From a virus, in the IMG/VR virus record IMGVR_UViG_3300036790_000668, positions 1 to 31,817 of that record: a stretch of 31,817 bases of DNA, one strand, 5' to 3'. The notes beneath the pieces were generated by a model that worked only from the letters and a program-made list of their open reading frames with translations, was not told where the DNA came from and ran no database searches. The position numbers and the translations under genes were made by a program. Position 1 is the stretch's first letter. Each line of letters starts with the position of its first letter. Positions 4,214 through 26,238 of the stretch are shown here, piece after piece.

Positions 4214-5827
4214 TTATTCCGCGCGCCAAGCCCCTTGGAACATCGTGACCACGGTCCGTTTCCCGTTCGGGTAAATGATGACGTGGCTGTGGGTCCATGA
4301 ACTCGGCCCGTGGTTATAGCCCATCCGAAACTTTGTGCTGGTGCCGACGACGTACAGGCCATCCCAAATTCCGGTGACGTGCGTATGGCCGATGACCGAG
4401 CGCCGACCGATCTTTGACATCGACTCCGACGCACCCTTCGACCCATTCGCTCCCAGATCGCCGTGCTGGCCGCATTCGATTCGCTTGTTACAGAGCAGGA
4501 AAGATTCATCCCAGCCGAGAAACTTCGCAGGAATGGACCAATCGCCGTGTCTGCCGATCAAGTACTCAAGCACGTTCATGTCTTCGTGAGATCGAGCGAA
4601 TCGCAATCGAGCCGCATTGCCGTCGTGATAGATTTCCAAGTTCGATGGATCGTCTTGTCGCGGATCATAGTCGTCGAGGAATCGATCCAACCAACGGTCG
4701 TGATTTGAATTCACAATCACCATCGCAGTTTCCGGACGATTGTATTTCATCAGCACTTTCGTGCTCTCGACCAATTCTGTTTTCACGTTGTTCAGACCGC
4801 GCATCCATGCCTTGAACCGATCCATCGGTTTGCGCTGCCCGTGATGATTCACAGAAACGCCTTCCATCAAGTCGTGGACGATTTGATATTTCGGCTTCAG
4901 CACGTCCAGCATGTTATTTTCAGCGGTCGCGGATAACGCCAGAACCGTTGGATCGATGATCGTTGCGTGGATGTCGCCCCAGACGATAGCCTCCACCCGA
5001 TGCCCGTCCGTCACGACGCCGTTCTCCACTTTCAAAGTCAGGTCGTAGATGGTCCCGGTATCATCCTCGGCGTCCAATTGTCGAACCTTCCACACGCCGT
5101 TGCTGTCGACTTCGACAAGCAAGCCCCCGTACGTGTGATGGAACTCGGCAATCAGTCCGGCGCGCTTCTGAATGTAGTTGCGCTTCGTCACCGTGCCTGT
5201 CGTGTAGTTGAGTTTGGAACCGCTGCCCTGAATCGAGGCGACGGAACGCAGCGCGATTTTCGCGTGCGGAAAAATGGCCGACTGCCGACCGGAATATGTT
5301 TCCAAGCCGGAGAGAGGATCAGGGGAAGTCGGCATGATGTTCTGCTCGCCGCACCACACGAGACCCTTGCCGAGTTGAATGCGCGCATCCGTGATATAGG
5401 ATTCGACGTTGTGGTCGTACCACAATTCGTGCTCGTACGGATTCTTCTTACCGCGCTTGACGGCCAGCGGGCCGAAATTGTTTTGGTTGTATGAGAACGT
5501 GCCGACGATGATCTCTGCGCCGTAGTGCACCGCAAGCGCCTGAATGTTTCGCCAGACAGCCTCGTGTACGTACGTATTGTTTTGAGCCGCCGTGAGAATG
5601 TACCGCTTGATTTTTCCCGACGCAGGCAGAGCCTTGCGAATCGTCTTCAGGCCGTGGCGTGATCCACTCGCAATGGGCTTTTTGCCGAGCCCCATCTTTG
5701 CGATGTGCCTGCGCACAGTGCTCCGCGCGATTCCAAGCAGGCGGGACACGACTGAAATATTTCCTTTGGCTTTTTTGAACGCTTCTGCGAAATTATCTTC
5801 CGTGAGATTCGTCACTTTATAGGCCAC
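4214..5827 (-). CDS. Calcineurin-like metallophosphoesterase with N-terminal HTH, T5 A1-like
   Basis: 537 residues. Residues 12-46 form a Fis-type helix-turn-helix ('NISVVSRLLGIARSTVRRHIAKMGL'-like segment), suggesting DNA binding. The C-terminal half carries the metallophosphoesterase motifs in order: GDIH at 284-287, NSNHD at 373-377, GQHGD at 453-457 and GHTH at 480-483. These provide the usual two-metal ligands. Length and the C-terminal layout recall bacteriophage T5 pre-early protein A1, a DNase linked to host DNA destruction; that link is from memory and is tentative. The start is GTG with GGGAG eight bases upstream. It is the first gene of the replication block after the membrane protein and precedes dnaQ-like and recA, consistent with nuclease work on DNA. 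A nonspecific phosphodiesterase is the alternative. Confidence 0.8.
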   Translation of the reverse strand: MAYKVTNLTEDNFAEAFKKAKGNISVVSRLLGIARSTVRRHIAKMGLGKKPIASGSRHGLKTIRKALPASGKIKRYILTAAQNNTYVHEAVWRNIQALAVHYGAEIIVGTFSYNQNNFGPLAVKRGKKNPYEHELWYDHNVESYITDARIQLGKGLVWCGEQNIMPTSPDPLSGLETYSGRQSAIFPHAKIALRSVASIQGSGSKLNYTTGTVTKRNYIQKRAGLIAEFHHTYGGLLVEVDSNGVWKVRQLDAEDDTGTIYDLTLKVENGVVTDGHRVEAIVWGDIHATIIDPTVLALSATAENNMLDVLKPKYQIVHDLMEGVSVNHHGQRKPMDRFKAWMRGLNNVKTELVESTKVLMKYNRPETAMVIVNSNHDRWLDRFLDDYDPRQDDPSNLEIYHDGNAARLRFARSHEDMNVLEYLIGRHGDWSIPAKFLGWDESFLLCNKRIECGQHGDLGANGSKGASESMSKIGRRSVIGHTHVTGIWDGLYVVGTSTKFRMGYNHGPSSWTHSHVIIYPNGKRTVVTMFQGAWRAE

Positions 5828-10028: not shown

Positions 10029-10060
10029 GGGAGCCTCTGCAGTTGGGGCTCCCTTTTTTT
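10029..10060 (+). terminator. Intrinsic terminator of the plus-strand island
   Basis: GGGAGCC (10029-10035) pairs with GGCTCCC (10047-10053) and is followed by seven T residues (10054-10060) on the plus strand. It lies 25 bases after the exported-protein gene and touches the stop codon of the convergent giant gene. The other strand has no T run after the hairpin, so it works mainly for plus-strand transcripts. Confidence 0.9.
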
Positions 10061-13000
10061 ATTTCTTCGCGGGTTTCTTCAGATTTCCGAGGGCCGCAAT
10101 CAAATCCATGGCGTTGTATTTTCCTTTGGATTTTTTCTTGGGCTCGGATGCGAAAAGCGTTGCCTGATCGGGCGCAGATTCGTTATGGCCGAAAGCGAAC
10201 GAGTCGTCATCGGGAGCAAGCGCCTTTATTTTTGTCGGGGAGATTGTTCCGAGGATGCGTCCAGCAGTTTTTCCAAGCTCAGTCTCACTAACTGGTGCTT
10301 GGCTGCCTGCGGGTCCACTTTGACTTGCGCGGGAGCCTGATGTCGCGCGATACGCTTCGCTAAGTCCTGCCGCTCCGCGTCCAATCCCGTGTTTTTCTGC
10401 GAGGCGGTCGAGGACGCCGCCGGGTCTTGTGATTTCTGGGTCATTTGCAATTACCTCCGCGTAGTCCTTACCGATGTTGTTGATGACCTCGGCATTAAGC
10501 GTACCAGCCGCATCCGCCGGAGTCAATCCTTCCTTCAAAAGCGTTTTCAAACCCAGCACGGTGCCCCAAAGTTGTTCTTGGCCTTCTCCACCTTTGAGCC
10601 CGAGCATCTTTGCAGCTTGCCGGAGGTGCGCGGAATCTGCGATGTACTGTGCCGCAGGCCCACCGGTGCTATTGCGGCCAAAGAAATCTCGGATGTGAGA
10701 GTCGATGACGAGTCGATTCAAATTTCCTGCGCCTGCGACGGTTGCACCCATGGACGGCACTTTGCGAGCGCCTTCCGTGGTGCCCATCAGAGGATTTTTT
10801 GCATCTTCCCGGAATACATCACCACCGAATGGGCGCTCACCTTTCATTTCAGGGCTATTCACGAGGTTGAAGATTTTGGTCGTATCCGTGCCTTGGTTCG
10901 TAAGCTTGCCGCGTTTGTTGTACGTATCGGACATCGCGGCATTGCCTTTTTTCCCGTTCCCAGCAGGTTGTGCACCGTTCGACTTCACGATTTTGTCGAT
11001 GCTGGCACGGTCGAGAGGCTTTCCAGCATCCAACCAATCCGCGTATGTGTGCCATGCCAAATTGTTTGCGTCCTCGACGGATTTGTTCGCCGAAAGTGCC
11101 GCATGCCATTGTTTCAAAACTTCCGCATGCGATGGACCGATTGTTTTTGCCGCAGCTGCGCCGTCATCCGCAAGCCCATGGAAAATGTCGATGTACCGTT
11201 TCCACCAGCCGCCCAGCGCCGCGCCAGCTTGCATCGCGTTCGCCGTTTCATTCACCGACGGAATCAGGTTGTGATACTGCGTCATGACGTTGCGCTGCAG
11301 CGTTTTGTTTCCCTGCAGGTAATCGCGTTCATCAGGTTCCAAGCTGTCGTACACGTCCTTCGAAAGGTGCTCGAAATTTTTGATGCCGGAAAGCGGTTCA
11401 TTGCGCAAGTCCTTCATCCGGTCTTCCATCGAATAGTTCGGGAATTCCGAACGCAGGCCGACGCCAGCCGTGGGAATTTCCTCTTGTTTGCCGATGTCGA
11501 ACGCCGCTCGCTGATCGAGCTTCTTTGCGACGCGCGCCGCGCCTTCGCCAATCGCCCCCAAGTTTATCTCATGCCCGCCGGGGAGGTTGGACGTATTGTC
11601 CCAGCCAATGCGAAGCTCAGGATGCTTATCCAGCAAGTCCTGATGCTTGGCTTGAAAATTTTCGAAATCCGCCTGTGTCGGAGAATGATCGAGAGCCTGA
11701 CGAGCCTCTGGAACAATTTCGGTGCCAAGACCTTTGGTATCAGGCTGGCCTGTGCGCGGGTCTAAGCCGCCAGCTGGTTGCGCAGCAGCGGTCTCAGCGG
11801 CGGTTTTCGACCAACCGTTGGACGGCACCGCTCGGTAATGCGTTGCATCCACGGGCCGCAACTTGCCATCATCGACCAGTTTGTCGATAGTGCTGTTGAT
11901 TTCAGCCTGATCGTTGCTGTTCGTGAAGAGCTTGATGTCGTTCGCAGTGAACGGCGTACTCCCGAAGGTCGATGCAATATCCATCGCGCTGTTGGCGATT
12001 CCTTCATCACCTTTTCCCGGTGTCGCGGAATTGAATTCTGGTGCAAGCATCATGGCTTTCTGCTCCGCGTACGGGCGGTCAGGAGCAGCAACATAGCCGG
12101 GTTCGCCTTTGCCGATTATCTCATTGTTCGCGTTGCGCATGTGCGCGCCGTAGTTCACCCATGCATTTTGAGCGCGCGTCTCGCTCGTGAGCGCCGGAAT
12201 CGCTTCCGGGCTGAACATCTGGCGATGTAGTAAATAGGCGTTCTCTTCGCCTGTCGGGCCGAACTGATGACCTTCTGCTGCGTGTCCGAACAGATCGTGA
12301 ATGGCGCGCAGCTTGTCCATGTACTTCAAACCGGTCTGTGGGTCCACTGCGGCCATCGGGTGATCGTTGGGAATGTCGCCACCTTGGAAGAAGTAGAGGT
12401 GATGATTATCCTTCACGTCTTCCATCATTTCGCGGCTATTGGCGTAAGGCTGGCCCTTCTGGGTCCATGGGTCAAACTCCATGCCCATTTTATTTGTGGC
12501 ATAATCCCATTGCTTGTCGATGTCGCTCTTCAACGCATCATATGTCTTTTTCACTTCCGGGCTGTCGGGTTCATGCTTCAGCGTATCGAAGTGATCGGCA
12601 AGACGTTTTGCAAAAGCCTCCGAAACTTTCTTTGGAGCAACGTCAATGTCTCCACGCCCCTGTTCCTTGTTGAAAGAATTCGCGGCCTCGCTTACGGTCA
12701 TTTTTGATTCGGGAGTGCTCACGCCACGCTGGTCGGGGTGTGCTTGAATCTGCCGCAGATAATCTTCGGTATCCCCGGCGCGCGGAAATTCTTTCGACAT
12801 CGTCGCAGTGTCTTTGTTTTCGGCATTCACATCCGTGCGTTCCATCACGACATTGCCGTTGCGGCCTGCTTGCGCGATGGCGCGCTGTAACGCAGGAATC
12901 TGCTCTTCGGTAACACCTTGTTTTGGAATCGAGACGTGCAGGGTATCGCCACCCCGGTCTTTGCTAAACCGCAGGCGCACAGCACCCGAATCATTTAGGA

Positions 13001-14996
13001 AGCCGACCCGGTTATCCGGCGTCCCACTGTATTTCTTGCTGGTGTCGTAGAAGTCGATGGCGGTATCGTGAAACGTGCCAGCGGGCAAATGAATGAACTG
13101 GCCGTCCGGTGCGAGAAATGATGCACCTTTTTTAACTGGAGCGGCGTCCTCACTGGTGCCGAGGGCATCCGCCATTTTTTGAAGCGTGGGATTTTCGTAA
13201 TCGGTGCCGGGCGCTACGGTCGCGGTTGCGGGGAGCTTGTTCGGTACGGCTTTCCCGTTGTTTTCTCGTACAGTTCCTTGCGTGTCTGTTCCTGCTGCGC
13301 TGGGTTCAGTTTTTGAAACGACTGTGCCATTTGTTCCCCGACTTCCTTCAGGTGGTTCTTCATTTCGTGCCTCCCGTACTTGTCGCAAAACATCCTGAAC
13401 CTTTTCAGGACTTGCATGCAGCGAATTGGGGAGTCCTTCCTCCCGAATCGCAGAATTCTGTTTGATTATATCACCGGTCGCTGGATGACTCAAGATGTCG
13501 GTCGCTTTCTGGTAACCGGCTTTGATCATGTCGTTGACTTCATCGGACGTGTATCCCAGCGTTTTGCCGATCTTGTGAAGTGCACCTAGATCACCGGCCA
13601 CGCCTTTATTTTCATCGATGGGCAGTCCATGCAACAAATCTTCTGCGACGCCGCCTGCGAGGTAGGTCGGCACAAATTTCGGCCACGAGTCCTTCAATGC
13701 CTCGTCGCTGAATTCGAGGATGCCGGGTTTTCCCGGTACCGTTTTGACTCCGGGAATTTTTGTCCAATCAAATTTCGTCGCCGCCGCCATACTAGTTCCG
13801 GCACTCTCGGGATGCAAGTGACTCTGAATTTCGGCACCCTCCGTCGGCAAGCCCATCGCATCTGCCACAACCGCATGCGCGTACTCGTGTGAAATCGCCC
13901 CATGTGTCGTGCCGTTATCGGTCAACAGGTCTTGCGGGATTTGTAGCAACCCATTGCCGGTCTTGTTCAACCCTCCCACATATTTTCCGGAATCGCCGTA
14001 CGCCGGGCTCAGATTCACTTTTTGGCCGGGCAGTTCTCCGCGCCGCGCGAGCGCCTGCTCAAATTGCATCGGTGGATGTTCGACTGCCGCTTTTTCAGGA
14101 GGCACTTCGAAATCGACTTGGTATCCCGGTTTGCCGTTCGGGTGGGTAATGTTCTCGACCGGCTGCCCCTTGTCGCGTAATTTTTCCCACACTCGATTCG
14201 CATCCGGCGAGGTATTCGTCGAGTCGCTTGTGATCCGGTTCGCTCCCTTGGTCGGAGCTTCGTCCAGCGCGGATTTGTACAGCGCCTGCCCAATCCCTTG
14301 ACCGCGCATTTCTGGTGTGACTTGTGATCCGTAAATTTGCGCACGTCCGTCGGGATCGACTTTGTAGCCGACCGATCCAACTTTCTTTCCATCCACGTAC
14401 GCGCTGTGGGTACGATCCCAATCAGGCCCCTCGGCCTGAATGTCTACTTTCGGTGCCGCTTTCTCGGTCGTGAGTTTTTTACCACCGGCAGCGCTGAAAT
14501 CAATTCCCTCGGTCGCGGCTTTCGCGGCGGCTTCGGGAGCCGCTTCTTCGCCTCCGGTTACGACCTGTGCGCCGGTACCCGCCAGTGTACCGAGTTCACC
14601 CTTGATGTTTCCGGCCAAGCCCTGTTCATCGGCCTTCACGATATTACCGCCGACCAGTGGGATGCCGCTCTCCAGATATTCTACTGCGCCTTCTGCTTTG
14701 TTTTTCAGGCCGGGCGCGGCGAGACGGGCTTTTGCCGCTTCCTGCGCCTGAGGGTTTGTAATCGCGTCGCGCACGCCTGCGACGGCCTGCGACGCCGTAT
14801 CGAGGGGATGGGTGACCGCATCCTTGGTTTCGGACGCAGCTTCCCCGCCGACAGCTTCAGCGGTCGCGACCGGATGCTCATAGATCGCTTTCGCTGCTGC
14901 CTTGACCTGTTCGGGTTCTACCCCCAAAGAAGTCGCAAGAGAGTGAAGAAATCCCTCGTCTACCGGAGGATTCGGAGTTGTAGCGTCACCGGCCAT
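10059..14996 (-). CDS. Giant multidomain 'polyvalent' protein with GNAT-like and M41-like protease regions
   Basis: 1645 residues, the largest gene here. Visible parts: a helical Ala-rich N-terminus (1-170). A GNAT acetyltransferase-like segment at about 185-300 has the acetyl-CoA loop RGQGIG at 231-236. A zinc protease signature follows with HEYAH at 370-374, then 'LAGGVAEDLLHG' at 446-457 and 'GDL' at 468-470; this order resembles the FtsH/M41 peptidase (HExxH, AGxxAEE, Asp third ligand). A conserved block at about 830-985 contains 'AIHDLFGHAAEGHQFGPTGEENA' and 'SETRAQNAWVNYG', with His/Glu residues that could bind metal. Several smaller globular segments follow to the end. This layout matches phage polyvalent proteins that are packed in the head and injected with the DNA. 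AAGGA precedes the ATG. It follows a smaller probable virion protein. Injection is inferred. Confidence 0.8.
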   Translation of the reverse strand: MAGDATTPNPPVDEGFLHSLATSLGVEPEQVKAAAKAIYEHPVATAEAVGGEAASETKDAVTHPLDTASQAVAGVRDAITNPQAQEAAKARLAAPGLKNKAEGAVEYLESGIPLVGGNIVKADEQGLAGNIKGELGTLAGTGAQVVTGGEEAAPEAAAKAATEGIDFSAAGGKKLTTEKAAPKVDIQAEGPDWDRTHSAYVDGKKVGSVGYKVDPDGRAQIYGSQVTPEMRGQGIGQALYKSALDEAPTKGANRITSDSTNTSPDANRVWEKLRDKGQPVENITHPNGKPGYQVDFEVPPEKAAVEHPPMQFEQALARRGELPGQKVNLSPAYGDSGKYVGGLNKTGNGLLQIPQDLLTDNGTTHGAISHEYAHAVVADAMGLPTEGAEIQSHLHPESAGTSMAAATKFDWTKIPGVKTVPGKPGILEFSDEALKDSWPKFVPTYLAGGVAEDLLHGLPIDENKGVAGDLGALHKIGKTLGYTSDEVNDMIKAGYQKATDILSHPATGDIIKQNSAIREEGLPNSLHASPEKVQDVLRQVREARNEEPPEGSRGTNGTVVSKTEPSAAGTDTQGTVRENNGKAVPNKLPATATVAPGTDYENPTLQKMADALGTSEDAAPVKKGASFLAPDGQFIHLPAGTFHDTAIDFYDTSKKYSGTPDNRVGFLNDSGAVRLRFSKDRGGDTLHVSIPKQGVTEEQIPALQRAIAQAGRNGNVVMERTDVNAENKDTATMSKEFPRAGDTEDYLRQIQAHPDQRGVSTPESKMTVSEAANSFNKEQGRGDIDVAPKKVSEAFAKRLADHFDTLKHEPDSPEVKKTYDALKSDIDKQWDYATNKMGMEFDPWTQKGQPYANSREMMEDVKDNHHLYFFQGGDIPNDHPMAAVDPQTGLKYMDKLRAIHDLFGHAAEGHQFGPTGEENAYLLHRQMFSPEAIPALTSETRAQNAWVNYGAHMRNANNEIIGKGEPGYVAAPDRPYAEQKAMMLAPEFNSATPGKGDEGIANSAMDIASTFGSTPFTANDIKLFTNSNDQAEINSTIDKLVDDGKLRPVDATHYRAVPSNGWSKTAAETAAAQPAGGLDPRTGQPDTKGLGTEIVPEARQALDHSPTQADFENFQAKHQDLLDKHPELRIGWDNTSNLPGGHEINLGAIGEGAARVAKKLDQRAAFDIGKQEEIPTAGVGLRSEFPNYSMEDRMKDLRNEPLSGIKNFEHLSKDVYDSLEPDERDYLQGNKTLQRNVMTQYHNLIPSVNETANAMQAGAALGGWWKRYIDIFHGLADDGAAAAKTIGPSHAEVLKQWHAALSANKSVEDANNLAWHTYADWLDAGKPLDRASIDKIVKSNGAQPAGNGKKGNAAMSDTYNKRGKLTNQGTDTTKIFNLVNSPEMKGERPFGGDVFREDAKNPLMGTTEGARKVPSMGATVAGAGNLNRLVIDSHIRDFFGRNSTGGPAAQYIADSAHLRQAAKMLGLKGGEGQEQLWGTVLGLKTLLKEGLTPADAAGTLNAEVINNIGKDYAEVIANDPEITRPGGVLDRLAEKHGIGRGAAGLSEAYRATSGSRASQSGPAGSQAPVSETELGKTAGRILGTISPTKIKALAPDDDSFAFGHNESAPDQATLFASEPKKKSKGKYNAMDLIAALGNLKKPAKK

Positions 14997-15005
14997 TTTT
15001 GATCC

Positions 15006-15581
15006 TTATGGGTTCAACACATGCAGCGTCGGGTCGATGGCCCGTGCCTGTTCTAAATTCTCAGCCGGAATGTCGTGAACTCCGCCGTCCGAGGCCAAAA
15101 CACGATGATGACCCTCAGGAATCGGGGGGAGATGCTGTAAACCATCCGGGCGCGTCGGCTGGGCCAGCGGAGCGGCCTTCTTCGATGTGGGCTGCGTCTT
15201 TTCCTTACCAGCCGACTTGCCCTCGCCCTGAGCCGTCTCTGCGCTTTTTTCGGCCACGGTAATGAGAGTCTTCGCGACGGTCGGGTACTTTTCGGCCATC
15301 TCCAGCACTTTCGGATCGATGTTCGCAATGCTATTCAGCGCTTTTGCGGCTCGGTCGATGGGTTCCGGTGGCGCGACTGCGCGTTGCTTGGCGCTATACA
15401 ACTGCTGTTTCGTGTCGTCGGGAATCGACAAAGGCGCGAGTTTCGTCGCCAGTTCCGTCGCATTCTTCGTGTTGTGGAAGGTGTCCCACAACTCCGCGCG
15501 CTGGTCATCATTAATCGTTGGTTCTCCCGCGAGAATTGGTTTCGCCGCGTCAATGAATGGAGATTGATTGTCAACAGCCAT
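15006..15581 (-). CDS. Hypothetical probable virion protein (191 aa)
   Basis: 191 residues from the ATG at 15581, chosen for AAGGAG seven bases upstream; codons further upstream overlap the histidine phosphatase gene. Mostly helical, Ala/Lys/Pro-rich, with a disordered central stretch (about 125-150, 'GEGKSAGKEKTQPTSKKAAP'). The C-terminus includes 'HHRVLASDGGVHDIPAENLEQARAIDP', a short beta-type motif like those in phage injected or internal head proteins. It ends 9 bases before the giant gene, whose ribosome binding site overlaps its stop. Co-expression suggests a partner of the giant protein; no family recognised. Confidence 0.65.
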   Translation of the reverse strand: MAVDNQSPFIDAAKPILAGEPTINDDQRAELWDTFHNTKNATELATKLAPLSIPDDTKQQLYSAKQRAVAPPEPIDRAAKALNSIANIDPKVLEMAEKYPTVAKTLITVAEKSAETAQGEGKSAGKEKTQPTSKKAAPLAQPTRPDGLQHLPPIPEGHHRVLASDGGVHDIPAENLEQARAIDPTLHVLNP

Positions 15582-15592
15582 CGCCTTGCTCC

Positions 15593-16225
15593 TTATCCGC
15601 AACTGGATTCCAAACCAGCGTCCTTGTCCATATCGGTCGCGCCAACCAAAATTTGAAAATGGCATTCACCCTTATCGTCGAGATACACGCCGACGATTCC
15701 GCCGGGCGTCACAACGTCGCCTTTTTCGTCCAACCCCATCAGGCCTTTCAACACCGAGTTGTGGCACACGATGACGGTCGGCAACGCTTTGTATGGCGAG
15801 CACAGATACGTGAATGCAACTTTTACGCGCTCGCAGAATTGATCAAAACTTTCTCCGCCCGGAATAGCGATGGCCGGATGATCCCGGTAGTACTGAAATT
15901 CTTCCTTGCGCTCGTCTGTTTTTTCTTTGCCGGTAAAATCACCGATGGCCCACGCGCGCAAGTTTGGGTCAGTCGCGATGTACGGACACTCGCAAGAAAT
16001 TTCGTTGGAGATGATGTCAGCAGTTTGTGCTGCGCGAGGAAGATCAGAACTCACCATGCGCCCGATGCGTTTGTATCCCAGCCATTCTCCGGCGCGTTTT
16101 GCCGATTGCTGTCCTTCATCGCTGAGAACAAATTTCCCCCATCCGTCCCATTTATTATCGATGTTCAGTTCCCCGTGACGGACGATGTACCCAATCAGTT
16201 CGTGGGTCGGATCAGTGGTCAGCAT
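15593..16225 (-). CDS. Histidine phosphatase superfamily (phosphoglycerate mutase-like) protein
   Basis: 210 residues with the branch-1 histidine phosphatase signature: VRHGE with R16 and H17 (phosphorylated His), SSDLPRAAQTA with R64, PGGESF with E125, and VIVCHNSV with H155. The acid usually found in 'LxE' is absent (LRAWAIGDFTG, about 89-99), a pattern I recall from some small-molecule phosphatases of this family. The substrate may be a sugar phosphate, nucleotide or metabolite; it cannot be read from sequence. The ATG overlaps the end of the zinc-ribbon gene, with AAGGAA upstream, so the two are coupled. Such enzymes are uncommon but known in phages. Confidence 0.88.
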   Translation of the reverse strand: MLTTDPTHELIGYIVRHGELNIDNKWDGWGKFVLSDEGQQSAKRAGEWLGYKRIGRMVSSDLPRAAQTADIISNEISCECPYIATDPNLRAWAIGDFTGKEKTDERKEEFQYYRDHPAIAIPGGESFDQFCERVKVAFTYLCSPYKALPTVIVCHNSVLKGLMGLDEKGDVVTPGGIVGVYLDDKGECHFQILVGATDMDKDAGLESSCG

Positions 16226-16393: not shown

Positions 16394-16478
16394 TGGAGCA
16401 GGACAGAGGACTCGAACCTCTGTGGGGTTTCCCCGGCAGTTTACAAAACTGCTGCTGTCGCCACTGAGCCAGTCCTGC
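16394..16478 (-). tRNA. tRNA-Thr(UGU) with a long variable arm
   Basis: 85 bases including an encoded CCA. The acceptor GCAGGAC pairs perfectly with GTCCTGC; discriminator U73. The anticodon stem GCAGT/ACTGC closes the loop TTTGTAA, anticodon UGU (Thr codon ACA). The T arm is AGAGG-TTCGAGT-CCTCT. The variable region is 14 bases and can form a GGGG-AAA-CCCC hairpin, a class II feature normally limited to Leu, Ser and bacterial Tyr tRNAs. The D stem has three pairs plus a C13-C22 mismatch. The 5' part overlaps the end of the HNH gene at 16441. Confidence 0.88.
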
Positions 16479-16869
16479 GCGACTCACGCCCATTGCCTCG
16501 ATTCAAACCGCGAAACGTCGGCGCTAGCGCGTGACAATTCGGACACAGAATTTGCAAATTCGATGGCCGACAATTTCTCCAATCCCCGTCGATATGATGA
16601 ACCTCGACTGGGATTTTTCTCGTTATTGAGTTACAACGACTCCATCTGCATTTTTCACAGCGTTCTCCTCGGAGCAAAATTAAAAAGCGTCTAACGGGTG
16701 ATACGACCCCGCCGATTTTACACCCGCTCACCAAACCCATCAGCCATTTGGCGATGTATGTTTGATAGAAATATTCACCTTGACATTCTCGACTACAGTA
16801 AATTTTCTCGTGACGATTTACTTCCTTGCCACAAGCCAAACACTGTCTTCGAGGCAATCTCGGATTCAT
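16441..16869 (-). CDS. HNH homing-type endonuclease
   Basis: 142 residues. The N-terminal zinc motif CLACGKEVN and 'YCSRECQGEYF' (C9, C12, C25, C29) is followed by a second pair 'CEKCRW'. The HNH core is VEVHHIDGDWRNCRPSNLQILCPNCH, with the catalytic HH and the Asn and final CxxCH in place. Such free-standing endonucleases spread by cutting relatives that lack them. The gene sits between tRNA-Met and tRNA-Thr, and its 3' end overlaps the tRNA-Thr 5' half by 38 bases. No strong ribosome binding site precedes the ATG. The roughly 110 bases upstream hold the inverted repeat at 16912-16940 and a TATGAT that could be a -10 box. Confidence 0.88.
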   Translation of the reverse strand: MNPRLPRRQCLACGKEVNRHEKIYCSRECQGEYFYQTYIAKWLMGLVSGCKIGGVVSPVRRFLILLRGERCEKCRWSRCNSITRKIPVEVHHIDGDWRNCRPSNLQILCPNCHALAPTFRGLNRGNGRESRRTGSVATAAVL

Positions 16870-16911
16870 AAAAATTGGCTGGGGTTCAGCGGCACTTTAA
16901 TCCGCTTCCTT

Positions 16912-16940
16912 CGTACGGTACTTGCGCGCTTTCCCGTACG
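16912..16940. repeat. Inverted repeat CGTACGG...CCGTACG upstream of HNH gene
   Basis: Two perfect 7-bp arms (16912-16918 and 16934-16940) flank a 15-base loop in the gap between tRNA-Met and the HNH gene. It contains GTAC cores like the putative operators elsewhere in the window. It could be an operator or a processing hairpin for the tRNA transcript. GTAC and CGTACG are common in this genome, so chance is possible. Confidence 0.35.
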
Positions 16941-16976
16941 CTGTTCTATCATAGCGAACTCAAAACCCCGTCGAAT

Positions 16977-17054
16977 TGGTTGCGGGAGAGGGATTTGAAC
17001 CCTCGATCCGGGTTTATGAGACCCGTGTCTTAGACCAGACTGGACGACCCCGCG
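16977..17054 (-). tRNA. tRNA-Met(CAU) with initiator-like C1-A72 mismatch
   Basis: 78 bases with encoded CCA. The acceptor CGCGGGG faces TCCCGCA: position 1 is an unpaired C1-A72, the hallmark of bacterial initiator tRNA, and the strand starts with the same seven bases as E. coli tRNA-fMet. Anticodon loop CTCATAA. The anticodon stem is CGGGT/ACCCG, giving G29-C41 and G30-C40 but U31-A39 instead of the third G-C pair. The D stem has U11-A24, the elongator arrangement. Identity could be initiator, elongator Met, or Ile after lysidine modification. The 5' end overlaps the end of the HNH gene at 17030. Confidence 0.92.
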
Positions 17055-17380
17055 ATTGTTTCTATCCTGTGACAGTTCGCGCAAAGAATAATGCACTTGT
17101 CAATCTCGCGCTGAATTGCCGCCAAACTGCATCCTCTCCGCACCATTGTCGCGATATTCGCGATTTTGGTTCCGAGGTGATGAAAATCCAAAGCCCTCGG
17201 GTCCTTCATCGGGCATCGTGCACATCCACGCGCCGCTTTGAATCCATTCACGTATGTTTTATTTCGGGGAATTGCTACGCCTTCCCGAAATCGAATCGCC
17301 CGCGCTTTCATCGCAGTTTTGTGCGATTGATAGTGCTTTGCTGCAGATTGCCGCTGCGCGTCTCTGTCCTTGCATGCCAT
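17030..17380 (-). CDS. HNH endonuclease
   Basis: 116 residues. The basic N-terminus leads into 'RGCARCPMKDPRALDFHHLGTK' (zinc pair plus catalytic HH) and, after a helical insert 'MVRRGCSLAAIQREIDKCI', ends with ILCANCHRIE (CxxCH). This is a common compact phage HNH fold. It fills the gap between tRNA-Asn and tRNA-Met, and its last codons run 25 bases into the tRNA-Met 5' half, so the transcript must be read both as mRNA and tRNA precursor. No clear Shine-Dalgarno before the ATG. Probably a selfish homing gene placed in the tRNA cluster. Confidence 0.87.
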   Translation of the reverse strand: MACKDRDAQRQSAAKHYQSHKTAMKARAIRFREGVAIPRNKTYVNGFKAARGCARCPMKDPRALDFHHLGTKIANIATMVRRGCSLAAIQREIDKCIILCANCHRIETIAGSSSLV

Positions 17381-17401
17381 CCAAGGACTATATCACAAAA
17401 G

Positions 17402-17476
17402 TGGCTGGGGAGGAAGGATTCGAACCTCCACCGTAGGCATTAACAGTGCCCCGCCCTACCTTTAGACCACTCCCCA
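17402..17476 (-). tRNA. tRNA-Asn(GUU)
   Basis: 75 bases with encoded CCA. The acceptor TGGGGAG pairs with CTCCCCA; discriminator G73, as expected for Asn. Anticodon stem GGGCA/TGCCT (one G-U pair), loop CTGTTAA, anticodon GUU. T arm GGAGG-TTCGAAT-CCTTC. All arms are complete, so it should be functional. Confidence 0.93.
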
Positions 17477-17557
17477 GTAGATGATGGACGGCGCGGCGAC
17501 CCGGCCCCTGAGCGAGCCTGTTATTGCCACCACGCGCCACCCGTGGGTTTTACTTCT

Positions 17558-17633
17558 TGGTGGAAGATACAGGTCTCGAACCTGTCACCCCCTGCTTGCA
17601 GAGCAGGTGCTCTACCAACTGAGCTAATCCCCC
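17558..17633 (-). tRNA. tRNA-Ala(UGC)
   Basis: 76 bases with encoded CCA. The acceptor GGGGGAT pairs with ATCTTCC and contains the G3-U70 wobble that identifies alanine tRNA; discriminator A73. Anticodon stem CCTGC/GCAGG, loop TCTGCAA, anticodon UGC. T arm ACAGG-TTCGAGA-CCTGT. It follows the Ig-repeat gene by 10 bases. The 81 bases between it and tRNA-Asn contain no further tRNA or gene that I can see. Confidence 0.95.
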
Positions 17634-19311: not shown

Positions 19312-20307
19312 TTACACTGCGGACACTTCCCCCCTGACCCGTCTGAATCCTGGGGTATTGTTTGTATTTGGGCGCGCCACAACGCCGAGGAACCAGTCGT
19401 AGCTCACGATTGCTCGTGTCTGCAACATCGGGTTCGACAGATCGATGTCATTGTCGCCGAAGGTCTTGACGTTCACCTTGAAGCTGGGGTTGCGCGGAAC
19501 GCGGTTGCCCAGCAACTCGGAGGCCATCATGGCTTCGCGGCCAACCACGTAAGTGGCGTAGCCGGTCTTGCCGGTTGAAGGATAGTTCGCGTACGTCGGC
19601 ACGGTCTGCGTGCGGATGATGCGAACGCCCGCCCATTCAAGGACGGTGTAGCCGCGCGTCATGTCCTGCTTCAGGACTTCCGCGCCAGCCGGAGTGCGCT
19701 TCAGCGTGTCGACCGCCGACCCTGCGCTGTTGTCCGACATGAAGTCGTACACGACGTAGGGGTGCATTGCCGACGTGTACAGTCCGCCGTCGCGGCCCGG
19801 AACTGCGTTGCCCATCAACTGGGATTCGCACTTCCGAATCGTGTTCGAGAGAATGTACTCGTTGTCGAGCAGGTCGATTCGAGCCGACGCCTGCGCGGTG
19901 GCCGCAGCCTCGAACCCGTTGATCGCGATCAGGTTGCTCGTGAGAGCGCCCCGATACGACAGGTTGCGGCTTGCGTCCATCGTAATGTCCGCGAGGAACA
20001 TTTGCTGGGCGACGTTCGAAATGCCGATCCAGTCGCCGTATTCATCGGCGAATGCATCGCTGAAAACTTGGTTCAACTGGAGCGACGGACCGGGGATGCC
20101 TTCCGACAGGTCGTAGGTCGCGGCAGCGTACGGCGTCTGGCCGTAGAACTGGAGAGTTCGACCCGACCGGCGAGGCAGCGGACGGAAGTCGCACAGTTCC
20201 TCAAGGAACGGTGTGTTGAACTGCCATTCGAGGATCGCCGTACGGTCGTACGCGATCTGCGGGAAAGCAGCGAGAGTGGTGCTCTGTACTCCGGGCGGCA
20301 GAATCAT
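19312..20307 (-). CDS. Major capsid protein, N4 gp56-like (HK97 fold)
   Basis: 331 residues resembling the N4 gp56 family of major capsid proteins. Features consistent with it: an N-terminal helix leading to 'FLEELCDFRPLPRRSGRTLQFYG', the 'LSEGIPG...LQLNQVFSDAFADEYGDWIGISNVAQQMF' segment at about 67-105 (in the family, 'LTEGxTP...YGDWVxLTD'), and a 'YVVGREAMMASELLG' beta/helix near 260. The ribosome binding site AAGGAG lies seven bases before the ATG. A copy of the repeated 16-bp motif lies 17 bases upstream, between scaffold stop and this start. It assembles the icosahedral head on the upstream scaffold-like protein. Confidence 0.88.
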   Translation of the reverse strand: MILPPGVQSTTLAAFPQIAYDRTAILEWQFNTPFLEELCDFRPLPRRSGRTLQFYGQTPYAAATYDLSEGIPGPSLQLNQVFSDAFADEYGDWIGISNVAQQMFLADITMDASRNLSYRGALTSNLIAINGFEAAATAQASARIDLLDNEYILSNTIRKCESQLMGNAVPGRDGGLYTSAMHPYVVYDFMSDNSAGSAVDTLKRTPAGAEVLKQDMTRGYTVLEWAGVRIIRTQTVPTYANYPSTGKTGYATYVVGREAMMASELLGNRVPRNPSFKVNVKTFGDNDIDLSNPMLQTRAIVSYDWFLGVVARPNTNNTPGFRRVRGEVSAV

Positions 20308-22010: not shown

Positions 22011-24257
22011 TTACGACCCGAACACCGCCGCATCTTGACGCGCAAACGCACCCTTTGCTGCACGGTCAAGCCCCTGAGCCTGAGGCGTTGAGGCCTCCGC
22101 CTTCGCTTGCTGCTGTTGCTGCTGCAACTGGATGTTGTTAGCCTGATCCGTGGTCTTGCCATGTTCCTTCAGTTCGTGTTTGCCCGTCTCGATCAACATC
22201 CGGTTCTCGGCTTGGTTGTTGTCCACGTCTTTCTTCACTTGACCCTGAGCCTGCACGATGCCCAGCTTGCCCTGAATGGCGGCCTGCTGAGATTGTGCAG
22301 CCAAGCGCGCCTTATCGTCGTCGTTCATCGGCACGACAATCTTTTCCTTGTATGGAACGTTGAACGTGTCGTACAAGGCCGTGAACATCGCGTTATAGTC
22401 CAGCTTCATCGCTTGAACCGCAAGGTTTTCGACGGTGCCCGGCGACTGCAGGAAACTCTGAATGATCCCGATGTACTTGTTCAGAGATTCGCGCGCGGCG
22501 AGCCGAGTACCAGCGGAAATATCGACGCGGTACGTGCCGTTGATCACATCCAGAGGCGTCGCGGTGAAAGCCTGCCCCAATTCCTGCGACAACATCGCCC
22601 GAATCTGTGACGGCTTCAATTTTTGGTTGTTCTCGATGCAGAATTCCAAGAACGGAACGAAAATTTGCTCGGAAATCACGTCGATCAAATCCTGCAGCTT
22701 GACGGACTCGCCGCCAGAGATCGCCTCGACGCCTGCGGGCGTGCGCATGTCTCCCGCCGCGCCCGGATTCGATCCCAGCGTGCCCGGACCTGCGCCGCTG
22801 ATTGATGCGGCCCATGCCTTCATCTGCGCGATGACTTCCAGTGGTTCCTTCGCGTCAATCGCGTTCCGAGTCAGTGCCTCTACCTTGCCCTGAGGGTCGG
22901 CTTTGAAAATCTTGCCGGGAAAAATCCACTGAGCCTGCGCGGAGTTGTTCGAGCCCGCTGGCGCAGTGTAAGTGCCCATCAAATTCAAGTTCATGTCATC
23001 CAAATACGCGTTGATAACACCTTGGCAGACGCGTTGAAAATCGGTGAGCCAAAATGCAATCCCGTATCCGTGCGCGGAGTCCGGCGCGTTGCGGAAACAG
23101 AACCCGAGAAAGGGAACGCGACCGAAATTGTGCGTTTCGTTGAGCAACACGTACTCTTTGTTCAGAATGACGGCATGCCGAAACGGAGTCCAGTAATCGA
23201 AAATCTCAAACTTGCGCCCGAGCGGGTCGTGTTGATTACGATCCGACTGGGCTTCAGGAAATGCTTTTTGCGGCGTCGTCGCCTGTGTGAAAACGGGGTT
23301 CCCGGTGTTCGAGCCGAGCGTTTCCAGTTCATTTGTGCTGGGAATTGCCTGCATCTGCGGCACCATGATCTTCACGAGATTTTCTCGCGAAGGAATCGTC
23401 CAGCCGACCGTGTTTCGAAGCGCGTCGAGATCGTATCCTGACTTGTAGATCAGGCGACCGAACCATTCTGCGCATCGCGGATCGCCTCGGCGCAGATCGG
23501 GAGCGTATCGCGCTCGACGTACAGGCACGTGTTCGATTACGGGAGCGTTATACTCAAGGACGCCGATGGTTTTCGGTGCAATGGCGTCGATGTCGTCATC
23601 CATCGGCTGCGGCACGTTAACCAGTTGCCCGTTCACGACCATAGAAACGTCGCGCGTCTTCTGAACCATCTTCACGATGTCTTTTTTGATGGTCTGCCAG
23701 CCGTAGTGCGCGATTCCAAAACCGTAAAACAGGCCGTCGTACGTAATTTCGCGAAATTCGCTCTTGGCCGACACGCCTTTGTACCCGCAGGTCTTCAATT
23801 CGGCGTTGATGATCGCCTGTTGGGCTACCGCGCAGTCCAAATCCGTGCCGGAAGTGGCATCGACTTTGAAAATTTGATATCCGCCGAACAGCGTTTGGTT
23901 CACGACGCTGTGGATACTGTAAAATTGCTCGGCGACGAGCGGAACTCCAAGGTGAGAGCGAAATTGCTCGCTGCCTTTCCACTTGATCGGATCGACCCAC
24001 GCGCGCAGCATGACTTCGGCGGTGTTCCAGCGCCCGATTAGACCTCGCGTCGCAATAAACGAATCGCTTTCCTCGCGGTTCATGTTCGCTTCTTTCAACA
24101 TCGACGCATTGCTGCGGAGTTGATCGGCAAACGCTACGTCCGTCGCAAGAATTGGGAGTGCAGTTTCTCCGTACGGCACTGCGCCGGGGAGTTCCTGTAC
24201 CTGCATCTGCCCGTGATCTTCGAAATGGGTGGTAGCTTTGATGATGTTGTCGGCCAT
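22011..24257 (-). CDS. Portal protein
   Basis: 748 residues, in the range of portals from short-tailed phages. It lies immediately downstream of the large terminase and upstream of scaffold and capsid genes, the usual portal position. Supporting features: an alpha/beta clip-wing region, 'FWLTDFQRVCQGVINAYLDDMNLNLMGTYTAPAG' at about 407-440, 'AISGAGPGTLGSNPGAAGDMRTPAGVEAISGGES' at about 490-525 (a loop typical of portals), and a C-terminal helical barrel-like, Gln-rich tail (about 650-748). It forms the dodecameric DNA channel at one head vertex and docks the terminase. The leader contains a motif copy and a hairpin. Confidence 0.82.
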   Translation of the reverse strand: MADNIIKATTHFEDHGQMQVQELPGAVPYGETALPILATDVAFADQLRSNASMLKEANMNREESDSFIATRGLIGRWNTAEVMLRAWVDPIKWKGSEQFRSHLGVPLVAEQFYSIHSVVNQTLFGGYQIFKVDATSGTDLDCAVAQQAIINAELKTCGYKGVSAKSEFREITYDGLFYGFGIAHYGWQTIKKDIVKMVQKTRDVSMVVNGQLVNVPQPMDDDIDAIAPKTIGVLEYNAPVIEHVPVRRARYAPDLRRGDPRCAEWFGRLIYKSGYDLDALRNTVGWTIPSRENLVKIMVPQMQAIPSTNELETLGSNTGNPVFTQATTPQKAFPEAQSDRNQHDPLGRKFEIFDYWTPFRHAVILNKEYVLLNETHNFGRVPFLGFCFRNAPDSAHGYGIAFWLTDFQRVCQGVINAYLDDMNLNLMGTYTAPAGSNNSAQAQWIFPGKIFKADPQGKVEALTRNAIDAKEPLEVIAQMKAWAASISGAGPGTLGSNPGAAGDMRTPAGVEAISGGESVKLQDLIDVISEQIFVPFLEFCIENNQKLKPSQIRAMLSQELGQAFTATPLDVINGTYRVDISAGTRLAARESLNKYIGIIQSFLQSPGTVENLAVQAMKLDYNAMFTALYDTFNVPYKEKIVVPMNDDDKARLAAQSQQAAIQGKLGIVQAQGQVKKDVDNNQAENRMLIETGKHELKEHGKTTDQANNIQLQQQQQQAKAEASTPQAQGLDRAAKGAFARQDAAVFGS

Positions 24258-24333: not shown

Positions 24334-26238
24334 TCAGCAAACTATCCCAGTGCCGCATCCGTTGTCGGCATACGAGTCGTCCGGCGGATTTGATTGATTC
24401 AACCGGCGGAGCCAGTTCTGAGCCGACGGCGGCGGAGGCGGAGTTTCGGCCTCATACCCGGTCGGCGCGGAGCAAACCAGCCCCGCGCAGTCCGCGAAGT
24501 CATCGTGACGCCCCAACTTCGGCCACTTCACGAGTTGTTTCACGAGGGTTGCGTATCCTTTCATGCTGGCGTAGAACCAGAGTCGACGCCCCTGCAGCAC
24601 GCCCTTGATGGAACCGATGCGCGTTAGCTTGGCCTTCGGGCTCTGATCCATCTTGATCCACTCGATGGGGAGTTTTTCGAGGTTCTTTTCCTTCGCGCGC
24701 GACGTAATGACGTTGTTGTATGCGTCCCATCCATTGAACCGCTCGTAGTAGAAGATTGCGGGACGGTGTTTCAGCGCCAGCGCGCATGTCATTTCCGCAA
24801 TTTGATCCGAGTCCCAGTTTCCGAACTCGCAATCGTAAATGAAAATCTGACCCTGAAATTTCCGGCACAAATAAATCACGGAGTAGTCACGATCCGGTTG
24901 GCCGACGTACGCCAGATCACCGACGGCGAACGTGTACGCCGATGCATAAGGCGGCAATTGGGTCTCCTGATGAAGTGTTTGCGCGCCGAGCAACGTCTCC
25001 GTGAAGGTCTGAGTGCCTTTCGCAATTGGGTTGTTCTCGTATTGGTTCGAAAAGAATTCCTCGCCGAGTCGGATTTTTTCACCTTCAAGAAATTCAAGCG
25101 TGTGCCCAATCGTTCGGCCATCTCGCGTACGAACTGCCGGGAACAAAACTCCCTTGACGCCATCCGATTCAAACGCCGTGCAAGAGCACGTCGGATGCGC
25201 ACACGGCGGGCGAAGAATGTTGATGTCCTTGTTGTGCCATGATTCGGGATGGCTGCAATGTTTGCAACCCAAAGTCCAGCAATCGCGAATCGAGAACTTC
25301 CAAATCGTTTTTCCGATTTGCTTTTCTTCCTCTTGCGCCATTTCCTGAATGCGCTCATACGTGTCGCCGTAGGAGTAGCGCGTGCCGGTCATCCAAATAA
25401 ATCCGCTGGGCTCCAACAGAGGGCAAATGTCGAGGTAGTCTTGATACACTTTTTCGAGCAGTTTAATGCTTCGATAATTCGTTTCGTTCACGAGGTCGTC
25501 GATGATGATCAAGTCATAGTGAGACCCGGCCTTGACTGACTTTGCCGTTGAAATCGAGAACGTCGGCTCCGCAAAGATGTCTGTCGTGCGCGCAGGCACC
25601 GTGAATTCGTGCGCGTTACCCATCTTCGGGTTCGTGTCTTCCCACTTTTGCGTCTTTTTGTCCAGTACGCTCTTGAGACAAAACTCAGGAAACAAAAGTT
25701 GAAAGCGCTGCGTAGGCTTCTCGAACACGCGTTTGATACGCGCGAGTTGGCGCTTCGCGAGTTGATCGCCGCCAGTCAGAAAGCAAATGCGGATGTTGGG
25801 GTAATTGAGAATCGTCTGTACTGTCTTCACGACGATGGCCGACGTTTTGAACAAACCCCGAGGCCACAGGATCATTCGCTTTTTGAAAACGAGATCAAGG
25901 TCACCAAACGCAGCGTGTTCGCCGGGCTTGTACTCCAAAAATTGTTTGAACAGGAGAGCGTGAGGTGTTTCTTGGAAATCCATTCCAATAACGGGGATGG
26001 GCTCCATCAGCACGCCGTCGTCGCCTTCGGGCTCTATAAAACCGCCCAGTAGCAGCGGGTCCTTCAGACACAGGTAGCGTTCAGCGAACCATTCGTCTTT
26101 TTCTTTCTGGAGCCACGAGCCAAACCACGCAGTCCACCGCTTGGGGAACAGGACGTTCTCTTTGATTGTGTTTTCGAGTTTTTCACGCCACCCCGAGAAA
26201 AGAGGATCGGCGGTTGCGCGATCAATGTACTTTGACAC
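24334..26238 (-). CDS. Terminase large subunit
   Basis: 634 residues; packaging motor ATPase plus nuclease. Walker A is WPRGLFKTS at 125-133 (deviant P-loop, common in terminases). Walker B is LIIIDD at 243-248, and the coupling motif region 'WMTGTR' is at about 282-287. The C-terminal RNase H-like nuclease shows VGDLAY (D441), YYERFNGWD (E499) and HDDFAD (D579/D580). Between the two domains a cysteine/histidine cluster (C320, C325, C328, H330, H335, C346, H348, C351, C353) looks like a zinc-binding insertion. The start is GTG with GGGGAG seven bases upstream. It works with the portal and with the small subunit encoded at 30838. Confidence 0.95.
   Translation of the reverse strand: MSKYIDRATADPLFSGWREKLENTIKENVLFPKRWTAWFGSWLQKEKDEWFAERYLCLKDPLLLGGFIEPEGDDGVLMEPIPVIGMDFQETPHALLFKQFLEYKPGEHAAFGDLDLVFKKRMILWPRGLFKTSAIVVKTVQTILNYPNIRICFLTGGDQLAKRQLARIKRVFEKPTQRFQLLFPEFCLKSVLDKKTQKWEDTNPKMGNAHEFTVPARTTDIFAEPTFSISTAKSVKAGSHYDLIIIDDLVNETNYRSIKLLEKVYQDYLDICPLLEPSGFIWMTGTRYSYGDTYERIQEMAQEEEKQIGKTIWKFSIRDCWTLGCKHCSHPESWHNKDINILRPPCAHPTCSCTAFESDGVKGVLFPAVRTRDGRTIGHTLEFLEGEKIRLGEEFFSNQYENNPIAKGTQTFTETLLGAQTLHQETQLPPYASAYTFAVGDLAYVGQPDRDYSVIYLCRKFQGQIFIYDCEFGNWDSDQIAEMTCALALKHRPAIFYYERFNGWDAYNNVITSRAKEKNLEKLPIEWIKMDQSPKAKLTRIGSIKGVLQGRRLWFYASMKGYATLVKQLVKWPKLGRHDDFADCAGLVCSAPTGYEAETPPPPPSAQNWLRRLNQSNPPDDSYADNGCGTGIVC

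Follow-up and report, generated by a model that had tools for sequence, protein, structure and literature searches.

Background

Polyvalent proteins, which are described from phages and conjugative elements, are large multidomain proteins that join unrelated, mostly enzymatic domains and are encoded near the virion genes of portal-terminase phages (PMC5512222). GNAT acetyltransferase and zinc metallopeptidase (zincin) domains occur within them, including HEXXXH variants, and a self-processing role has been proposed in general for the zincin domains (PMC5512222). Two other kinds of phage protein are relevant here. The virion RNA polymerases of N4-like phages are giant proteins that are reported to be cysteine-free, and this absence has been tied to injection (PMC3915230, PMC2784036). 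The SAM lyases, such as gp0.3 of phage T3, destroy SAM, the methyl donor of the cell. At their conserved SAM-binding positions they have Glu, Gln (and Gly) (PMC7877911, PMC12255297).

A giant protein encoded beside the head genes

We analyzed a 1645-residue protein (P0001) from a 31.8 kb viral fragment; by "the window" we mean the whole stretch of DNA that was analyzed, 31,817 nucleotides. The gene lies at 10059..14996 on the minus strand, as do all of the domains whose coordinates we give below. It has an ATG start, no stop inside, and an AAGGAT-like ribosome site upstream. The first-pass annotation had quoted several motifs from this reading frame without stating the strand, and we located all of them: RGQGIG (residues 231-236), HEYAH (370-374), AGGVAEDL (447-454), GDL (468-470), HDLFGH (900-905), GEENA (916-920), and SETRAQNAWVNYG (938-950). 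It had also proposed that the protein is polyvalent and combines GNAT and M41-type peptidase domains with a conserved domain without known function, and these domains are indeed present. The order is GNAT (194-273), M41-type (364-545), a domain that we call X (about 590-785), the HDxxGH domain (about 790-1000), and a domain that we call Y (1086-1195).

P0001 resembles the described polyvalent proteins in being large and multidomain, in having both a GNAT and a zinc metallopeptidase, and in lying beside head and packaging genes (PMC5512222). Unrelated and mostly enzymatic domains (GNAT, M41-type, and HDxxGH) are joined within 1645 amino acids, and the terminase, portal, and major head genes are on the same strand. 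The order on the minus strand is terminase large subunit (24334..26238; phrog_38, E = 1e-46), portal or connector (22011..24257; phrog_332 and phrog_1216), scaffold-like protein, major head protein (19312..20307; phrog_1357, E = 5e-16), four tRNAs, HNH-like genes, and the polyvalent gene, so the major head gene is upstream on the same late strand. After the polyvalent gene, still on this strand, come a phrog_1745 "DNA transfer protein" and then RecA/UvsX and DNA polymerase.

Internal or ejected virion proteins are usually encoded at such a place.

We note several features of the neighboring genes. Just upstream of the polyvalent gene is a small cysteine-free gene (15006-15665); the C-terminal DGGVHDIPAENLEQA of its product is similar to the DG..IP motif that is repeated N-terminally in the relative L199. 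A histidine-phosphatase-like gene (15593-16225; phrog_12933, with an RHG-type start) adjoins the polyvalent gene. Between the head and polyvalent genes, at 16394-17633, four tRNA genes (Thr, Met, Asn, and Ala) are mixed with small HNH-like ORFs. The phrog_1745 protein (4214-5827; 537 amino acids, E = 2e-162) has a DNA-binding stretch at its N-terminus and metallophosphoesterase-like features. PADLOC had no match to P0001.

Cysteine depletion

P0001 contains no cysteine at all, although about 21 would be predicted if it were like the window's other genes, and this was absent from the first-pass annotation. To put this in context, we considered 67 non-redundant giant phage ORFs with the HDxxGH domain (from L006-L085 and later viral loci). 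These proteins have just 41 cysteines in 169,130 residues (0.024%), and 53 of the 67 have none. The cysteine content is 0.90% for other ORFs from the same loci, 0.56% for other long ORFs, and 1.31% for solo cellular homologues. The same is seen within the HDxxGH domain alone (0/16,035 residues in phage giants versus 77/6,826 in cellular proteins). Shortened versions of the domain that are expressed early by T7-like phages do contain cysteines.

The giant N4 virion RNA polymerase also lacks cysteine (PMC3915230, PMC2784036), but we found no RNA polymerase domain in P0001. We infer that P0001 is probably ejected, because the giants are purged of cysteine and because the gene is beside the head genes. 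Of the evidence presented here, the cysteine depletion is the strongest that P0001 leaves the virion, and it gives strong indirect support. The earlier proposal of injection with the DNA is therefore supported indirectly, by the position of a late gene next to head genes and by the near-total absence of cysteine.

Another explanation is that P0001 is mainly a structural protein of the virion or an ejection conduit, and that its enzyme-like domains are relics or act only during assembly. The late-region position fits this, and loss of cysteine would suit any protein that is unfolded or that leaves the virion. However, HExxH and its distal Asp, as well as 10 invariant positions of the HDxxGH domain, are kept across very diverged relatives (see below), and we consider a mainly structural role to be quite unlikely.

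A peptidase domain related to FtsH but without AAA+

The first-pass annotation had noticed HEYAH, AGGVAEDL, and GDL in the order of the M41 peptidases. Plain BLAST and HMMER comparisons of this part of P0001 to phages, PDB, and Pfam had no match, and the PF01434 profile did not match P0001 (G000) or its phage relatives, so the kinship to M41 is visible only by alignment-based comparison. We aligned 13 diverged copies of the domain from the collected relatives (two phage proteins carry it twice). HExxH is kept in nearly all copies (one has HDIAH), and the distal Asp is kept in all of them. When compared to FtsH M41 sequences with hhalign, the probability was 92-95%, with P = 5e-7, 3e-8, and 7.5e-8 (13 rows), which bears out the motif order that had been noticed (P from 3e-8 to 7e-8). 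Unrelated families used as controls gave P = 0.02-0.7. SprT-like zincins gave P = 5e-4 over 15 columns; this is an HExxH-only match and is expected because that motif is shared.

The structural model points to the same family. We made an AlphaFold2 model for residues 325-1205. Across the M41-type region, pLDDT is mostly 83-95, and it is weaker (55-69) around 394-404 and 454-474. FtsH structures took ranks 1-7 in Foldseek. With VIA-align, the top 20 PDB entries are all from the FtsH family (Z = 10.8-13.9 over 129-166 residues; the best is 3kds, Z = 13.9), followed by 5iqj at Z = 7.7 and then by unrelated folds below Z = 5. The model thus keeps the protease fold that the first-pass annotation had expected. 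The 5iqj_A entry is a solved Vibrio cholerae protein whose function is not known; it may be another AAA-less relative of M41.

By profile comparison and fold, residues 364-545 (13362..13907) are an FtsH/M41-related zinc peptidase domain without AAA+, and peptidase activity is predicted. HEYAH (13875..13889) aligns with the HExxH of FtsH and contains the predicted zinc ligands H370 and H374 and the predicted general base E371. The predicted third zinc ligand is D469 (13590..13592), which is conserved in the 13-row alignment and pairs with the FtsH Asp (the "ND" position). P0001 shares with FtsH the HExxH, GGxAEx, and distal Asp in the same order as well as the fold; unlike FtsH, it has no AAA+ ATPase (no AAA family was found in P0001 by Pfam scan) and is missed by PF01434. 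Because AAA+ is absent, we call the domain M41-related and do not call the protein an FtsH. According to PMC5512222, the metallopeptidase clades described in polyvalent proteins show no specific relationship to any established zincin clade, whereas the domain in P0001 is related to M41/FtsH and has Asp as its third ligand.

Among the relatives, L139 has two M41-type domains in one chain (ORF residues 828-1046 and 1144-1363). The phage protein L198 also has two, and one of these has HDIAH in place of HExxH.

The GNAT domain and possible host targets

Residues 194-273 (14178..14417) match PF00583 with 44.6 bits, versus a cut-off of 20.7 (E = 2e-11), so the GNAT-like signature in the first-pass annotation holds up. 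PF13508 and PF14542 also exceed their Pfam cut-offs in this region. Matches to GNATs in PDB are weak. With an above-cut-off profile and the RGxGxG acetyl-CoA loop of the superfamily (RGQGIG, 231-236), this is a GNAT acetyltransferase domain, beyond chance; acetyl transfer is predicted.

The relative with the nearest architecture, L141/L205, has the N-terminus of P0001 and everything from residue ~367 to 1201 in common with it, but no GNAT was detected in it. This suggests that the GNAT of P0001 is an exchangeable mosaic insert.

The first-pass annotation had suggested that the injected protein acetylates and cleaves host targets. An effector of this kind, in which the GNAT acetylates and the M41-type domain degrades specific host proteins, is consistent with the catalytic signatures that both domains retain, and the conserved zinc site speaks against a purely structural role. 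However, P0001 has no AAA+ unfoldase to feed the M41 site, so processive degradation like that of FtsH is unlikely. Also, the precedent for zincins in polyvalent proteins is self-processing (PMC5512222), no substrate for the GNAT can be inferred, and the GNAT was not detected in the closest relative. We consider action on specific host proteins to be unlikely, and we favor self-processing by the M41-type domain.

HDxxGH is a large family in phages

The first-pass annotation had placed a domain at about residues 830-985 and described it as conserved in other giant phage proteins. The domain exists (phrog_3170 family, E = 8e-24) and is found in many relatives, but it is larger, from about 790 to 1000 (11997..12629). 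In 133 sequences, 10 positions are invariant: Q829, R897, H900, H905, F912, G916, H924, A935, E939, and Q943. H900 and H905 belong to HDLFGH (12282..12299), and the invariant acidic residue E939 (12180..12182) is a candidate third metal ligand.

When viral contigs were searched with the whole of P0001, nothing was found, while an alignment of the domain gave hundreds of loci: at least 581 candidates in viral contigs, along with 52 candidate loci in cellular genomes (one per species). HDxxGH is a large family without a name and without a Pfam model, and we could not match it to any of the named LPDs of PMC5512222. The 433-amino-acid mycobacteriophage protein of Bixzunavirus (phrog_3170; Astraea gp103) has the same domain and a similar neighborhood of virion genes, but it is nearly solo, whereas in P0001 HDxxGH is one domain of a 1645-residue protein.

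A viral structure search with HDxxGH gave large phage proteins and also less similar proteins of 160-200 amino acids from T7-like phages. The large family and these small proteins match each other by profile comparison (P = 9.6e-9). The shortened versions are early genes (LKA1 ORF7, phi15 gp2, and gene 1 of Haage), and in T3 the SAM lyase gene occupies the corresponding part of the genome.

Immediately before HDxxGH is domain X (residues ~590-785, 12642..13229), which is common to L006, L087, L205, L206, and L207 according to phmmer. In the AlphaFold2 model it weakly resembles gelsolin, but with Z below 5 this is not significant, and we rejected it.

Chromosomal neighbors of HDxxGH

Chromosomal copies of HDxxGH are mostly solo proteins of ~220-300 amino acids. 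We checked eight non-actinobacterial loci (from Aureispira, Aquimarina, Chryseobacterium, two Ruegeria, Pelagibius, and two BD1-7). In all eight, HDxxGH adjoins a SAHase-like gene, with an NAD domain of the S-adenosylhomocysteine-hydrolase type, and in seven of the eight, DUF3293 is beside it or fused to it. The conserved operon of SAHase-like, solo HDxxGH, and usually DUF3293 genes (L088, L089, L090, L093, L094, L095, L096, and L103) was found in Bacteroidota and Proteobacteria. This link between the three families is an association, not an activity.

The actinobacterial solo copies have other neighbors. In the two loci from Micromonosporaceae that we read, the HDxxGH gene is flanked on one side by a gene for a type I-like N6-methylase and on the other by one for a Ser/Thr kinase. 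In these loci (L126 5286-9471 and L119 5289-9687), the kinase and the methylase match profiles for MADS and other defence systems.

The SAHase-like and DUF3293/SAM-lyase-like neighbors tie the 790-1000 domain more closely to the chemistry of metabolites than to any acetylation or proteolysis of proteins of the host.

DUF3293 and domain Y

DUF3293 (PF11697) seems to be distantly homologous to the phage SAM lyase. Its alignment matches the T3 SAM lyase with a probability of 94% and P = 1.4e-7 (hhalign), versus P = 0.2-0.8 for controls, and the SAM lyase model PF23780 matches the DUF3293 region of L087. Most members of DUF3293 carry the Glu and Gln (and Gly) of the conserved SAM-binding positions. 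Comparing DUF3293 to PDB by sequence gave nothing relevant, and a search of the open-access literature for DUF3293 brought up no publication.

In the phage proteins L009, L087, and L002, DUF3293 is fused directly downstream of HDxxGH. (DUF3293 is at 8574-8936 of L009, at 8556-8918 of L087, and at 202-660 of L188.) In P0001, HDxxGH is followed by domain Y (residues 1086-1195, 11412..11741), which we identified from hhalign and the secondary structure of the AlphaFold2 model. Neither PF23780 nor PF11697 matches in the window record. The predicted beta-alpha-beta-beta-alpha-beta order of Y fits the PII-like topology, and its G, E, and Q are ordered as in DUF3293. Compared to DUF3293 by hhalign, Y gives P = 4e-5 to 3e-4, or P = 0.003 with its closest relatives alone; direct comparison of its profile to the SAM lyase finds no match (P = 0.65). 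Among the matches listed by VIA for the 325-1205 model, which the M41-type domain filled, there is no row for domain Y, and for that reason we do not read this as a sign of a new fold. Y resembles T3 gp0.3 and DUF3293 in its predicted topology and in the G, E, and Q positions, but it is only distantly like DUF3293 and does not match the SAM lyase directly, whereas DUF3293 itself appears to be a relative of SAM lyase. From these profiles and the predicted topology, it is possible but unproven that Y is a SAM-lyase-like domain.

Of 106 HDxxGH proteins from phages, just 19 have a detected DUF3293 or Y, which makes the pairing recurrent but not general. None of the 19 has both, but with an expectation below one this has no significance.

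Candidate chemistries for HDxxGH

For HDxxGH, the candidates are a zincin-like enzyme, a non-haem iron enzyme, or a new fold. The AlphaFold2 model of the domain is confident (pLDDT 94), yet comparing it to PDB with Foldseek and VIA gave no significant fold match. We also saw a MATCAP match on L105 (E = 0.067), but it covers the wrong part and we judged it to be due to chance.

HDxxGH could be a divergent zincin with an HDxxH or HDxxxH metal helix. It would then be another peptidase, or a metallohydrolase, and have nothing to do with SAM. In the small T7-like branch the motif is HDxGH, with spacing like that of HExxH, and this branch weakly matches the M78/IrrE profile (P = 8e-4, probability 25%); Foldseek gave weak matches to IrrE, SprT, and PPEP-1; and some polyvalent proteins have HEXXXH variants (PMC5512222). 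Against this, the large HDxxGH family does not match M78 or SprT profiles (P = 0.55 and 0.12), and a peptidase leaves the operon with SAHase-like and DUF3293 genes unexplained. We see a divergent zincin as possible but not probable.

The motif HDxFGH with a downstream Glu also recalls the aromatic amino acid hydroxylases, which are non-haem-iron enzymes (Hx4H...E). The top match for the domain in PDB with Foldseek is phenylalanine hydroxylase (2v28, E = 0.94), and there is a weak profile match (P = 0.0019). But the probability of that match is just 14%, the Glu ligand is not paired in the alignment, no structural alignment reaches Z = 2, and there is no VIA row for these enzymes. Both the profile and the fold comparison are too weak to support a specific relationship to the hydroxylases, and a non-haem-iron enzyme of this kind is very doubtful.

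We also tentatively propose that HDxxGH is a new and widespread superfamily of metalloenzymes and that, together with SAM-lyase-like DUF3293/PII proteins, it forms a counter-defence module that attacks SAM or adenosyl metabolites. This module would occur in three forms: packaged in advance and injected, within cysteine-free polyvalent proteins; as an early gene of T7-like phages; and, in chromosomes, as a metabolic operon that includes a SAHase-like enzyme. As a whole this proposal is speculative, and we would not expect all of it to hold.

Proposed role of P0001

We propose that P0001 is an injected polyvalent counter-defence protein with a self-processing M41-type domain, a SAM-related module, and an exchangeable GNAT, and we give this an even chance of being correct. 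P0001 would be carried in the phage head and enter the host along with the DNA. The M41-type domain would chiefly cut its own polyprotein into working units, either before or after ejection. HDxxGH and the DUF3293/SAM-lyase-like partner that adjoins it in many relatives (here the divergent domain Y) may have SAM or another adenosyl metabolite related to it as their substrate. As infection begins, this could blunt SAM-dependent restriction, methylation, or nucleotide signalling. The GNAT would be an additional, exchangeable effector that performs some further modification.

The polyvalent class, and the GNAT and zincin domains within it, were already known. As far as our tools show, what is new is the relationship to FtsH/M41, the extent of the HDxxGH family and its cellular operons, its branch of T7-like early genes, the kinship between DUF3293 and the SAM lyases, and the measured purge of cysteine.

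If our interpretation is right, then a very common but unnamed domain of giant phage proteins would have a concrete function, DUF3293 would be tied to the SAM lyases, and the arsenal of injected proteins would gain an FtsH-type peptidase that lacks AAA+. The absence of cysteine may then serve as an easy criterion for screening whole genomes for ejected phage proteins.
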